Assembly: GCA_030729695.1 (NCBI GenBank)
Contig: JANQWV010000011.1
Location: forward strand, 1 to 40,155
DNA length: 40,155 bases
Direction: 5' to 3'
Source: Flavobacteriales bacterium
GTDB lineage: Bacteria; Bacteroidota; Bacteroidia; Flavobacteriales_D; Sanyastnellaceae
Below are positions 10,107 to 40,155 of this stretch, one piece after another. The notes below the pieces were generated by a model. That model was not told where the DNA came from. It searched no databases and saw only the letters and a list, made by a program, of their open reading frames with translations. Made by a program: the position numbers and the translations under genes. How positions within the stretch are numbered: position 1 is the stretch's first letter; the number at the start of each line of letters is the position of its first letter.

Positions 10107-10200
10107 TTGAACTTCGTTGTTCCTATTTCGTAATTGGAAAATCGTAGATTTTATTCCTACGAAGTAATTCCTATTTCATAATTGGAACTGCGTTGTTTGT
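10107..10200. repeat. Intergenic hairpin repeat, copy A
   Basis: Begins right after the fabI stop. It contains GAACTTCGTTG (10109-10119) and a hairpin at 10136-10157: AAAATC-GTA-GATTTT with outer GG/CC bases. It then continues with TAATTCC, TTCATAATTGG and AACTGCGTTG. About 53 bases (10131-10183) align without gaps to 40081-40133, with only a few differences. Related words occur at 11205-11310. It is low in coding potential and shows no transposase or CRISPR features. Confidence 0.75.
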
Positions 10201-10246
10201 CTTCCCTTTTCTTACCCTCTCTTAACTTCTCTTACCTTTTAATGAA

Positions 10247-10588
10247 TCATTTGAATTCTCTCGACAATATCGATTCGCATGCAGTCTTTAATTCATTCAA
10301 TTCAAAAGCTGTGTGATAAATACGCTCTAATTTCACATTGTGATATTCGTGAATAATGAAATTTCGAAACGATTTTGGTAAGAACCATGGGAAATCATAT
10401 CGTCTGAGTATTTCTGGAGAAATAGCCCCTGCGGCTTCACCGATAATGAGGAATTGATATTGAACTGCACTGTGAAGCATCACATCGTTTTCAAATTCAA
10501 GCAGCGTTTTATCATTTACAAACGCTTGAATTCGAGAAATAGCAGTCAGTATATCTTCAACCCTTGGCTTGTCTCTTGGCTTTGACAT
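10247..10588 (-). CDS. hepT: HepT-like HEPN ribonuclease toxin
   Basis: Toxin of a HepT/MntA type module (DUF86 family): a HEPN-fold RNase that cleaves RNA when free. The 113-residue protein has the diagnostic RX4HXY motif, Arg75-His80-Tyr82 (RNFIIHEY); in characterised systems the motif Tyr is poly-AMPylated by MntA, which silences the RNase. The start ATG at 10588 (MSKPRDKPRV) is preferred over a further in-frame upstream start at 10618, giving a 32-nt overlap with the mntA end. This toxin-second order with overlap is typical. I infer the activity from the motif; it is untested here. Confidence 0.88.
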   Translation of the reverse strand: MSKPRDKPRVEDILTAISRIQAFVNDKTLLEFENDVMLHSAVQYQFLIIGEAAGAISPEILRRYDFPWFLPKSFRNFIIHEYHNVKLERIYHTAFELNELKTACESILSREFK

Positions 10589-11183
10589 ACACAACTTCTT
10601 TTTCTCGAACCACTTCAACAGCAGCAGATGGCTTCAACTGTCCTTCTTCAATTAAATCTACTTTTCGATTCAACAATTCTTCAAGGTCATGCTGCATTTT
10701 CAGAATGTCGAACATGGATATTTTCTTCTTCGCCACAAACTGAATCAAAAGATCAATATCACTTTTCGCTGTTTCTTCTTTTCTTACAAATGATCCAAAT
10801 AAACTCACTTCTTGAACAACATCAAGCTCTGCGAAATAAGCCTGAACCGTCTTTTTAATATGCTCTTTTTCTGAATCGTGTTTGGTTTTGTATACCACTT
10901 GTTTTTCCAACAATTTCAAAATAGACAACGCATCGTCTTCATGCTCCAATTGCTTATAGAGCTTTTCAGCCAAGAAAACCTTGTGTAGCTCATGAATATC
11001 TTTTTTATAAAGTATAGCCAATTGCCTCAGGACATCCTTCGTTACCGGACGCTTTCCATTCTCCATCTTACTCAATATGGCCTGGTCAATCTCCAAATAG
11101 GCAGCTACCTCGCGTAAGGTTTTACCACTTTCTTTTCTGAGGTCTTGCAAATACTTGCTAATATCTAATCTTGACAATTTCAT
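10557..11183 (-). CDS. mntA: XRE-MntA fusion: HTH domain plus minimal nucleotidyltransferase antitoxin
   Basis: Antitoxin partner of hepT, 208 residues. Residues about 6-65 form a Cro/C1-type helix-turn-helix (SGKTLREVAAYLEIDQAILS, then KMENGKRPVTKDVLRQLA). Residues about 105-200 form the MNT nucleotidyltransferase with GSFVRKEETAKSDIDLL (Gly130-Ser131, Asp142 and Asp144) and a third acidic residue at Asp176 (KVDLIEEG). MNT antitoxins transfer AMP to the HepT tyrosine; the fused HTH probably binds the operon's own promoter. The ATG at 11183 is used rather than a TTG at 11192. A 7-bp inverted repeat overlaps the -7 box just upstream. Confidence 0.88.
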   Translation of the reverse strand: MKLSRLDISKYLQDLRKESGKTLREVAAYLEIDQAILSKMENGKRPVTKDVLRQLAILYKKDIHELHKVFLAEKLYKQLEHEDDALSILKLLEKQVVYKTKHDSEKEHIKKTVQAYFAELDVVQEVSLFGSFVRKEETAKSDIDLLIQFVAKKKISMFDILKMQHDLEELLNRKVDLIEEGQLKPSAAVEVVREKEVVYVKAKRQAKG

Positions 11184-11204
11184 TCTTGACAAATATAGTC
11201 AAGA
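11184..11204 (-). promoter_or_regulatory. Operator-like palindrome overlapping the mntA-hepT -7 box
   Basis: TCTTGAC (11184-11190) and GTCAAGA (11198-11204) form perfect 7-bp arms around a 7-nt centre. Read on the minus strand, the last base of one arm plus the centre spells TATATTTG, an exact -7 element (11190-11197), ending 6 nt before the ATG. A dimeric XRE repressor bound here would block polymerase, which fits the HTH fused to MntA. The binding itself is inference. Confidence 0.7.
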
Positions 11205-11310
11205 AACTGCGTTGTTCCTACTTCGTAATGGGAAACAGAGATTTTATTCCTCCCGATAGCTATCGGGATTAGTAATGCCTGATTCATAATTGGAACTGCG
11301 TTGCTTTGAG
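11205..11310. repeat. Intergenic hairpin repeat, copy B
   Basis: Contains the family words AACTGCGTTGTTCCTACTTC, GATTTTATTCC, TTCATAATTGG and AACTGCGTTG seen at 10107 and 40010. It also includes the perfect 18-bp palindrome at 11251-11268. The AAAATC/GATTTT hairpin of the other copies has decayed here. It continues into TCGC-TTT-GCGA (11312-11322), a mini-hairpin similar to the units in fdhD. Confidence 0.65.
11251..11268. repeat. Perfect 18-bp palindrome TCCCGATAGCTATCGGGA
   Basis: Self-complementary over all 18 bases, in the intergenic region upstream of the toxin-antitoxin operon. From memory, similar palindromes recur in Flavobacteriia genomes as REP-like units. No transposase is nearby. 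Confidence 0.7.
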
Positions 11311-11337: not shown

Positions 11338-11356
11338 CCCCCACTGGAGGTGGGGG
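11338..11356. repeat. Strong intergenic hairpin
   Basis: CCCCCAC (11338-11344), loop TGGAG, GTGGGGG (11350-11356), followed by AAAA. It has a 7-bp, nearly all-G:C stem in the gap before the FAD oxidoreductase. It lacks a T-tract on the plus strand, so it is more likely another mobile hairpin of this region than a terminator for plus-strand transcription. Confidence 0.6.
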
Positions 11357-11405
11357 AAAACGTTCAATAGTGATTGATTGCGCAACAATAGAAGCACTTT
11401 GCATT

Positions 11406-18514: not shown

Positions 18515-19339
18515 ATGAAGGCTTCTTTAAACTACCAAGCATTGAAGAACGGGCAACCGGTCTCCGATGCCTTGGTGGTTGAAGTGCCTGTTCAATTATT
18601 TATTGAAGAAGAACCGCTCACGGTGTCTATGTGCACACCAACGCACGTTCGTGAATGGGCCTATGGAATTTTATTTACGGAAGGAATTATTCGCTCTGCT
18701 GATCAAGTTCTTTCCTATTCTGAGGAAGAAGTCGATCATCAGATAATCCTTCGAGTTACTTTGAATAATGCCACACAGGCCATCACGAACAAGCGTTCGT
18801 TGCTTAGTGTGTCTGCTTGTGGAATATGCGGAAAGACGGCGTTTGAGCCGGCTACGCGGAGCGATGACGAACGAAGTTCGATGACACCAAGTGATGACGA
18901 ACGAAGTTCGATGACACTTCGTGATGACCGCGGAGCGGATGACGAGCAAAGCTCGATGACGCTGCGCGAGAATATTGCGCAAATGATGGTGCAGTTAAGA
19001 GATTCTCAAACCTTGTTCGATGAAACGGGCGGATGCCATGCGGCTGGAGTGTTCAATAGAGAAGGCCAGCTTATTTTCGCCAGCGAAGATATTGGCCGAC
19101 ACAACGCCGTTGACAAAGTAATCGGACATCTACTCTTAAACAATCAACTACGCTCGGCCAAATACATCGTAGTAAGCGGAAGAGTTTCTTATGAGATTGT
19201 CGCGAAGTGCTTTGCTGCGGGAATACCCAATCTTGCAGCTGTTTCTTCTCCTTCATCTTTAGCCGTTGACTACGCAAAAGAATTAGGCCTATCGCTCTTT
19301 GCCTTCTGCAGAGAGAATCGCGTTACACAATACGCCTAA
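18515..19339 (+). CDS. fdhD: FdhD sulfurtransferase carrying an in-frame hairpin-repeat insertion
   Basis: FdhD passes sulfur from a cysteine desulfurase to the molybdenum cofactor of formate dehydrogenase. The 274-residue protein keeps the key CxxC (Cys102, Cys105; SACGICGKTAFE), TGGCHAAGVF and the family signature EDIGRHNAVDKVIG. Residues about 114-151 are alien to the family: repeats of the type DDERSSMT with no hydrophobic core, encoded by tandem 30-nt units at 18863 and 18893 and shorter units after. The frame is preserved, so the insertion replaces or lengthens the loop that follows CxxC. No formate dehydrogenase gene is in the window. The gene follows fhs by 3 nt. Confidence 0.93.
   Translation: MKASLNYQALKNGQPVSDALVVEVPVQLFIEEEPLTVSMCTPTHVREWAYGILFTEGIIRSADQVLSYSEEEVDHQIILRVTLNNATQAITNKRSLLSVSACGICGKTAFEPATRSDDERSSMTPSDDERSSMTLRDDRGADDEQSSMTLRENIAQMMVQLRDSQTLFDETGGCHAAGVFNREGQLIFASEDIGRHNAVDKVIGHLLLNNQLRSAKYIVVSGRVSYEIVAKCFAAGIPNLAAVSSPSSLAVDYAKELGLSLFAFCRENRVTQYA
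18863..18960. repeat. Tandem mini-hairpin units inside fdhD
   Basis: Four units share a GATGAC-stem-loop-stem'-GATGAC plan: GAAC-GAA-GTTC at 18863-18886 and again at 18893-18916 (30-nt period), CGC-GGA-GCG at 18923-18943, and GAGC-AAA-GCTC at 18938-18960. Stem sequences change between units but remain complementary, while the flanking GATGAC is constant. All unit lengths are multiples of 3, which keeps fdhD open. Confidence 0.85.
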
Positions 19340-39876: not shown

Positions 39877-39961
39877 GGAGAGTTGGCAGAGTGGTCGATT
39901 GCGGCAGTCTTGAAAACTGTTGACTGTAACAGGTCCTGGGGTTCGAATCCCTAACTCTCCG
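39877..39961 (+). tRNA. tRNA-Ser (anticodon UGA)
   Basis: 85 nt, type II. Acceptor GGAGAGT/ACTCTCC, discriminator G (as expected for Ser), D stem GCA/TGC, anticodon stem GCAGT/ACTGT with loop CTTGAAA (anticodon TGA), a long variable arm, and T stem TGGGG/CCCTA with loop TTCGAAT. CCA is not encoded. It reads UCA codons. Confidence 0.95.
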
Positions 39962-39965
39962 CTTG

Positions 39966-39997
39966 AAAAGCCCCGAATAATTCGGGGCTTTTTTTTT
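39966..39997 (+). terminator. tRNA-Ser intrinsic terminator
   Basis: AAAAGCCCCGAA, loop TAA, TTCGGGGCTTTT followed by more T: a strong stem and a run of nine T, starting 5 nt after the tRNA. Confidence 0.9.
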
Positions 39998-40011: not shown

Positions 40012-40155
40012 AACTACGCTGTGGGAACTGCGTAATTCGTGCTGCGTAATTGGAAAACTGTCGGTTTTATTCCTACTGCGCAATTGGAAAATCGTAGATT
40101 TTATTCCTACTGTGTAATTCCTATTTCATAATTCCTACTCCGTAATGCCTACTTC
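40012..40155. repeat. Intergenic hairpin repeat, copy C (runs off the window)
   Basis: Contains two hairpins of the 10136 type: AAAACT-GTC-GGTTTT (40054-40068) and AAAATC-GTA-GATTTT (40088-40102). The second is identical to copy A across 40082-40110. Further family words are CTGCGTAATTGG, ATTCCTATTTCATAATTCC and CTCCGTAATGCC. It lies directly after the tRNA-Ser terminator and continues past the edge. Confidence 0.75.

Follow-up and report, generated by a model that had tools for sequence, protein, structure and literature searches.

The three related segments described here, in a window of 40,155 nt (the whole stretch of DNA that was analysed) from a Flavobacteriales bacterium, are strings of hairpin words rather than copies of one hairpin, and represent a single class, with the linkers ATTCC/ATTGG, of arrays in which perfect triloop mini-hairpins stand in tandem. 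The array unit consists of a class-specific linker of 3–5 nt and an interchangeable perfect hairpin word with a stem of 3–7 bp, mostly of the form C-NNN-G; the words in arrays are 7–17 nt long. Arrays of this kind were found only in one small genus, where they are abundant in eight of nine species and nearly lacking in the diverged ninth (G007); their hairpins remain perfect as the letters vary, which points to an undescribed, DNA-level kind of repeat. The original prediction, which saw in the window a dispersed intergenic hairpin family, was right as to the hairpins and their dispersal, but the family also has in-frame copies within genes and is one class of several; the 14-nt modular grammar, the other linker classes, an in-frame copy within fdhD (18855–18968) and a rule of GNA loops had been overlooked.

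In the class represented by the three window copies, here class A, a 5-nt linker ATTCC or ATTGG (with variants) alternates with perfect palindromes with a 3-nt loop, the words being TAC-NNN-GTA, TAT-TTC-ATA, AAC-NNN-GTT, AAAATC-NNN-GATTTT, AAAACC-NNN-GGTTTT and AAATCC-NNN-GGATTT. Copy A (10110–10194, + strand), as read from the sequence, runs AAC-TTC-GTT, gttcc, TAT-TTC-GTA (with one T·G), attgg, AAAATC-GTA-GATTTT, attcc, and then three more words, TAC-GAA-GTA, attcc, TAT-TTC-ATA, attgg, AAC-TGC-GTT. An orthologous array is present in the congener G003 (L216), with flanks 95–97% identical. The hairpin AAAATC-GTA-GATTTT occupies 10138–10152 (+ strand) and recurs at 40088–40102, exactly where it had been placed by the original prediction, and its loop is GAA at the same place in G003.

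Copy C (40012–40155, + strand; identified from the sequence and by similarity search) is truncated by the end of the contig. Its words include AAAACT-GTC-GGTTTT (40054–40068), AAAATC-GTA-GATTTT (40088–40102), TAC-TGT-GTA, TAT-TTC-ATA and TAC-TCC-GTA, and the first of these differs from the second in the way first described, a T-A pair having become C-G by changes on both sides and a C-G pair T·G. Copies A and C do align without gaps, but the length of about 53 bases once given is too short, as the best ungapped alignment joins 10117–10193 to 40067–40143 over 77 nt with 86% identity. As a query against the whole genome of the window, evidently a metagenome bin (a 2.1-Mb assembly of 71 contigs, 89% complete), copy C returned 31 matches at E<=10, 19 of these at E<1e-3. 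Upstream of it lies a tRNA gene (39877–39961, + strand; Rfam RF00005, 54.3 bits), in our reading a Ser tRNA from its TGA anticodon region, followed by what reads as a canonical intrinsic terminator (GCCCCGAATAATTCGGGGC and T9; 39970–39997, + strand); since this terminator is complete and precedes copy C, the array is not needed as the terminator of the tRNA gene.

Copy B (11205–11302, + strand) is partly decayed, as judged from its sequence and from comparison with its orthologue in G003. It begins AAC-TGC-GTT, gttcc, TAC-TTC-GTA, atggg, AAACAGAGATTTT, attcc, and continues through the palindrome CCCGATAGCTATCGGG to a final AAC-TGC-GTT. The loss of its stem had been recognized at the outset, and because the orthologue retains an intact stem, GGGAAAATC-AGA-GATTTT (that is, AAAATC-AGA-GATTTT), it is the window copy that has lost 2 nt, within AAACAGAGATTTT. 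The palindrome CCCGATAGCTATCGGG (11252–11267, no strand assigned) is perfect and loopless over 16 bp; it occurs in 1–12 copies in seven of the nine congeners and sporadically in other families of the order, and at several places its copies adjoin class A array words.

Other features lie close by. Exactly between copies A and B, at 10247–11192, are genes for a HepT-like nuclease (PF01934) and an HTH/nucleotidyltransferase protein (PF18765/PF01909), likely a HepT/MNT toxin-antitoxin system by their domain content. At 10200–10240 there is a dispersed purine-rich element, GGTAAGAGAAGTTAAGAGAGGGTAAGAAAGGGGAAGA, also seen at L005, L014 and L167 and often bordering arrays, and at 11338–11357 a dispersed hairpin with a 5-nt loop and a covarying stem, CCCCCAC-TGGAG-GTGGGGG in the window and CCCCCAG-CTTCA-CTGGGGG elsewhere (L004, L011). 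A longer dispersed repeat, TACCCCGGATAGCAGTGGAAAGCC...GGAACGAATAGCCGGAAAAGGTTC, lies next to arrays in several congeners (L165, L166, L169, L171, L007).

The flanks of class A copies contain arrays with other linkers and different stems that follow the same rule, and the genus has at least five further linker classes, with a weaker additional one. Class B has the linker GAAT with words such as GCCC-TTC-GGGC, GTC-TTC-GAC and GTTGC-GAA-GCAAC; class C has TTGA (TCAC-TTC-GTGA, TCTGAC-AAA-GTCAGA), class D has ATGA (CGAAC-GAA-GTTCG, CAC-TTC-GTG), class E has AGA with a period of 12 (TGC-TTC-GCA, TTC-TTC-GAA), and class F has TTGG (TCCC-TTC-GGGA, TCCAC-GAA-GTGGA). The weaker class G, with linker CCTC, is less regular. 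A possibly independent simple case is the tandem palindromic repeat [TAG-TCA-CTA]gtcgt at positions 204–300 of L134 (G019:C1), from another genus of the family.

The arrays exceed chance by several measures. With up to three mismatches allowed, the window contains 41 occurrences of the 14-nt unit TTCCTAYTTCRTAA; the expectation is 14.6 and no more than 25 were seen in any of 100 shuffles, which excludes chance as the source of the excess. Chains of at least five consecutive triloop hairpins number 81 (549 words) in eight of the nine congeners, in a sample made up of stretches that cover about 20% of the window's genome and portions of the eight others, several of them picked around known matches; all of the genomes compared are metagenome assemblies, with simple gene calls. 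There are 14 such chains in 439 kb of the window's genome (G000) and 24 in 372 kb of the congener G004, compared with about 1.0 each in shuffled sequence, and the excess is by far strongest at 3-nt loops, with little at 4–7 nt overall and a small excess only at 5–7 nt. In stretches chosen with less or no bias there are about 30–39 arrays (at least four GNA-rich words) per Mb, and therefore roughly 70–85 per genome. Both further copies and preserved pairing were sought and both were found; the opposite outcomes named in the original prediction, no further copies or differences that break the pairing, did not occur.

The pairing of the words also emerges when they are selected by their linkers alone. 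Of the distinct words of 7–15 nt lying between copies of CGAATG, 69 of 82 are perfect triloop palindromes, as are 32 of the 39 distinct words between copies of GATGAC, and these words have many different stems. An unsupervised ranking of 6-mers as linkers places CGAATG (69/98), ATTGAT (40/57), GATGAC (32/44) and CCCTCG (16/42) at the top, followed by a steep fall, and gives nothing comparable in G007 and the outgroups.

The words also share a rule of loop and closing pair. Loops of the form GNA or TNC make up 78% of the 549 words in the 81 arrays, compared with 13% in shuffled controls, and 83% of the words close with C-G; both shares are raised in every class. Among triloop palindromes of the same genomes that lie outside arrays, 18–19% have GNA loops and about 20% C-G closure. 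The array words thus carry the C-GNA-G loop feature of DNA mini-hairpins, a loop described as extra-stable (Hirao 1994 and Yoshizawa 1997, as cited in PMC6479982), and share it with the GNA mini-hairpins of the d(GCGAAGC) type, where it is known as a physical motif and not as a genome-wide repeat grammar.

Stem covariation, as claimed at the outset for the window copies, holds well beyond them. In sets selected by linker, 96% of cells in class D, 91% in class B and 97% in class A are paired, and the covariation scores (D 0.78, B 0.50 and A 0.28, compared with 0.18, 0.21 and 0.12 when shuffled) each exceed those of all 500 shuffles and of every slid control; the class A alignment (A3) was trimmed by eye to words with an AA start and an ATTCC end, so that the trimming itself accounts in part for its conserved outer pairs. 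Comparison of orthologous sites across species, with 175 distinct aligned words, gives 25 paired Watson-Crick changes, two paired non-Watson-Crick changes and 41 one-sided changes. If the two sides changed independently, about three paired changes would be expected, of which about one Watson-Crick, compared with the 25 observed, although branches of the species tree are shared and the events counted are not independent. At one site, for example, AAAACC-GTA-GGTTTT corresponds to AAATCC-TTC-GGATTT, and TAT to TAC, and within fdhD CGAAC-GAA-GTTCG corresponds to CGAGC-GAA-GCTCG.

Words are gained, lost and exchanged as whole units, with concerted homogenization. Loops differ between orthologues at 21.6% of sites and linkers at 3.5%, the latter a lower bound because words were kept only where at least four of five linker bases match; selecting the words by their linkers makes the linkers look more conserved than they are. 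Loop changes are associated with paired stem changes (odds ratio 3.1, p=0.025). One orthologous site has five tandem words with GTA loops in one species and five with GCA loops in the other, and one intergenic site has a class A array in one species and a class C array in another. At a further orthologous pair of sites (L091, 14810–14880; L158, 16706–16877) both species apparently have the same two words, GTTC-GAA-GAAC and GTCT-GAA-AGAC, with the linker ATTC in one and CCTC in the other, as though all the linkers had been exchanged together. No clean empty site of the MITE type was found among closely related orthologues, most sites having a shorter or different array. Template switching within a single hairpin classically yields loop inversion, and spacer inversion by such simple switching accounts for just three of 102 loop differences and was rejected as the explanation.

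Arrays are also present within genes. The window codes for FdhD, a formate dehydrogenase accessory protein (18515–19339, + strand; Pfam PF02634, E=1.7e-60), with orthologues in six congeners, and the gene contains an in-frame class D array at 18855–18968 (+ strand; DNA fold z=-3.9), between the peptides CGICGKTAFEP and ENIAQMM. Its eight perfect triloop words are CGC-GGA-GCG, CGAAC-GAA-GTTCG, CAC-CAA-GTG, CGAAC-GAA-GTTCG, CAC-TTC-GTG, CCGC-GGA-GCGG, CGAGC-AAA-GCTCG and CGC-TGC-GCG. In six array-bearing species the flanks are 92–95% identical to those in the window, the number of words varies and FdhD is 259, 264, 266, 274, 284 and 289 aa long, with the frame always kept; in the diverged G007 the array is absent from that place. 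Words of 13 and 9 nt, which with the ATGA linker make 17 and 13 nt, keep the frame jointly, and an 11-nt word with its linker makes 15 nt. Class E arrays, with their period of 12 nt or four codons, are in frame in genes for a cyclase-domain protein, DUF4846 lipoproteins and a protein without a Pfam match. Some further ORFs that overlap arrays are probably mere over-long start calls.

DNA rather than RNA seems to be the level at which the constraint acts, because mismatches show no preference for G·U and loops none for either strand. The single mismatches of imperfect words are A·C in 15 cases and G·T in eight (oriented by linker, not by transcript), and the sense-strand loops are GNA in 111 cases and TNC in 107. 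The folded intermediate originally proposed was either RNA or single-stranded DNA, and these counts favor its second half, with single-stranded or cruciform DNA the better fit. A function in RNA, with hairpins at transcribed gene ends serving in termination, 3'-end protection or as RNase III sites and covariation reflecting selection for RNA structure, would agree with the placement of the arrays, 31 of 61 of which are in convergent intergenic regions (37 of 186 background regions, by simple ORF calls) and only four of 61 in divergent ones (47 of 186, by the same calls), and with the predicted RNA fold of copy C (z=-3.1). We consider it quite unlikely: the whole-array RNA fold is predicted to be a long-range structure and not a row of word hairpins, copy C comes after a complete terminator, some arrays are in frame within coding regions, and an Rfam search of the window found the tRNA only, the arrays matching no family. 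The G·U-tolerant, strand-biased covariation of a structured RNA family is likewise lacking in these words. The preference for convergent regions fits tolerance as well as function.

Convergent regions are also where supercoiling collides, and together with the hairpin or cruciform potential of the words this placement would suit arrays bound by host proteins, such as nucleoid or topology sites by analogy with BIMEs for gyrase and IHF, that are kept by selection on DNA shape. The number and class of words change rapidly at orthologous sites and some arrays are within genes, and because conserved binding would predict stabler positions, such binding is very improbable as the reason for their upkeep.

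The narrow distribution of the arrays is clear at several levels. Class A sequence is present in the window's genome and all eight congeners (in G007 as a single weak match) and in none of 51 other genomes of the family and order. Among 84,980 named genomes, a set from which records nearest the window's genome may be left out, the class A pattern is confined to seven metagenome assemblies, which carry the labels Flavobacteriales, uncultured Bacteroidetes or, doubtfully, Chryseobacterium gleum and whose sample codes suggest that they come from lakes. A class B word is present in seven of the nine genomes of the genus; across 399 genomes of the order, its only other occurrence is at one contig end. 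This contig end, in another family (L273, G301:C5, 1–304), is 83% identical to G004 and contains a class B array, and the remainder of G301 has no arrays in 160 kb; on sequence evidence it is most likely a chimera, or else a transfer. No comparable arrays were found in 416 kb of G007 stretches or in 40 stretches (679 kb) of outgroup genomes. A phage origin was rejected, as the class A and D patterns were not found in IMG/VR contigs. Loss of SbcCD was rejected as an explanation for the tolerance of palindromes: the genus lacks sbcD (TIGR00619), but most of the family lacks it too, so that its absence does not discriminate.

Dispersal by a REP/RAYT-like system, in which an IS200/IS605-type tyrosine transposase cuts single-stranded hairpins and spreads them, had been put forward in the original prediction as a lead to follow. 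Genes for Y1 transposases (PF01797) are present in four of the nine congeners, the window's genome included, and three of the five Y1 transposase loci have array words no more than a few hundred bases away. The GTAG/CGTC tag nevertheless adjoins none of the 549 words, the transposase is absent from G002, which is 96% complete and rich in arrays, and from three less complete array-bearing genomes, and at least six unrelated sequence classes would each have to be recognized; we regard this origin as highly unlikely. Two of the transposase loci (L121, L123) have a repeat of their own near the gene ends, GGAGGCATGGGTGTTAGCCCATGCAAATGGTGAT, which is unrelated to the arrays. A retron, DGR or other retroelement was rejected on the lack of an associated reverse transcriptase gene, RVT_1 (PF00078) being found in none of the nine genomes of the genus.

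We tentatively favor, at a little short of even chances, the interpretation that the arrays are genus-specific modular DNA repeats, selfish or neutral, that spread and have their words shuffled by linker-anchored copy-choice where DNA synthesis stalls at hairpins. A hairpin would form on the template or nascent single strand and, at the linker that constitutes its base, stall synthesis; the released 3' end would then re-anneal at another linker copy of the same class, in the same or another array, and the next word would be copied. Linkers would resemble each other within a class by serving as recombination homology, stems would remain paired as words are transferred whole, and the best-folding words would stall most and be copied most, favoring C-GNA-G loops in every class. 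The host would tolerate arrays where they are harmless, beyond gene ends, and in tolerant protein segments if their length keeps the frame. Such a model would explain the grammar, the uniformity of linkers within classes, whole-word exchange, homogenization, the loop rule and the absence of a dedicated transposase; we infer it from the sequences of the arrays, and any function of the arrays is likewise putative.

Several observations count against linker-anchored copy-choice. The 3-bp A/T-rich words fold only weakly even when the loop is GNA, the ATTC and CCTC linkers with matching words are not predicted by exchange through linker homology alone, and template-switch loop inversion accounts for only three of 102 loop differences. 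Moreover, copy-choice by itself creates no new perfect stems, and a correction, a selection step or a shape-specific enzyme is also needed; imperfect palindromes are corrected in E. coli and yeast (PMC7202029; PMC8604942). A dedicated enzyme or mobile element of the genus that recognizes C-GNA-G mini-hairpins by their shape and inserts, copies or edits them would suit the loop and closing-pair rule common to classes of unrelated sequence, the restriction to one genus and the occupation of the same sites by different classes in different species. No candidate gene was found among those searched, with reverse transcriptase absent and Y1 transposase patchy, and such an enzyme seems unlikely. Whether by hairpin copy-choice or by a shape-specific enzyme, it is conceivable, at appreciably less than even chances, that the arrays form a new category of genomic repeat, defined by shape, in which the heritable unit that replicates is the C-GNA-G mini-hairpin and not a sequence; one process would copy several sequence classes, keep them palindromic and also introduce repeats into genes in frame.

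Among known systems, the Rickettsia palindromic elements (RPEs), with the coding palindromes of Wolbachia and Methanocaldococcus, likewise comprise several families and are both intergenic and in frame (PMC10969869; PMC2996958). Each RPE is one element of about 150 bp whose peptide is conserved, and those of R. conorii end in CGTC (PMC3733652); the arrays share with them in-frame insertion into protein genes (class D in fdhD, class E in the cyclase and DUF4846 genes) but have words of 7–17 nt joined by class linkers in place of a shared 150-bp sequence, and CGTC at none of 549 words. REP, BIME and REPIN sequences are likewise dispersed, often extragenic bacterial palindromes, and REPs are 20–40 bp long, carry a GTAG (or CGTC) tag and are often accompanied by a cognate RAYT (PMC3733652). 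In the arrays, stems vary from word to word, so that there is no single conserved palindrome of 20–40 bp per family, and neither the tag (0/549) nor a cognate transposase (PF01797 in four of nine, absent from G002) goes with them.

The short palindromic repeats of Volvox organelles, the RHE of sponge mtDNA and the double-hairpin elements of Allomyces are likewise selfish, varied in sequence and subject to a common structural rule, with a preference in Volvox for loops of 3–5 nt and TTTA/TAAA (PMC2670323). They are organellar, average 50 nt in Volvox, are nested and not joined by linkers, and are without the GNA triloop rule, constant linker classes and in-frame copies in bacterial genes. LIMP, of the Lobosphaera mitochondrion, also consists of palindromes that are internally repetitive and whose two loop orientations are equally frequent (PMC4524435), but has one pentamer and one invariant 7-nt loop, whereas in the arrays stems vary and loops are hypervariable. 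PARCEL sequences are tandem coding repeats with dyad symmetry (PMC2996958), but are 25-aa amphipathic protein repeats of imperfect symmetry, whereas the rule of the arrays also holds in non-coding DNA. CRISPR arrays, compared by repeat pattern alone, have a constant repeat of about 24–40 nt, unique spacers and cas genes, whereas here the constant part is 3–5 nt and the variable part is palindromic. A search of the open PMC literature, a scope that leaves subscription journals aside, found no description of such a grammar. By analogy, the arrays would work like a selfish hairpin repeat and resemble RPEs in entering genes.

The usual explanation for dispersed bacterial palindromes is a sequence-specific transposase or an RNA function. 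Here several unrelated sequence classes follow one structural rule, with covariation of a DNA type, in a small genus for which the closest array-poor relative is known. The genus thus offers a natural experiment in the birth, perfect upkeep and spread of hairpin-forming repeats, and in the addition of segments to proteins; because copies differ between species whose neighboring DNA is about 92–97% identical, it should be possible to catch the process at work in strains or enrichment cultures.
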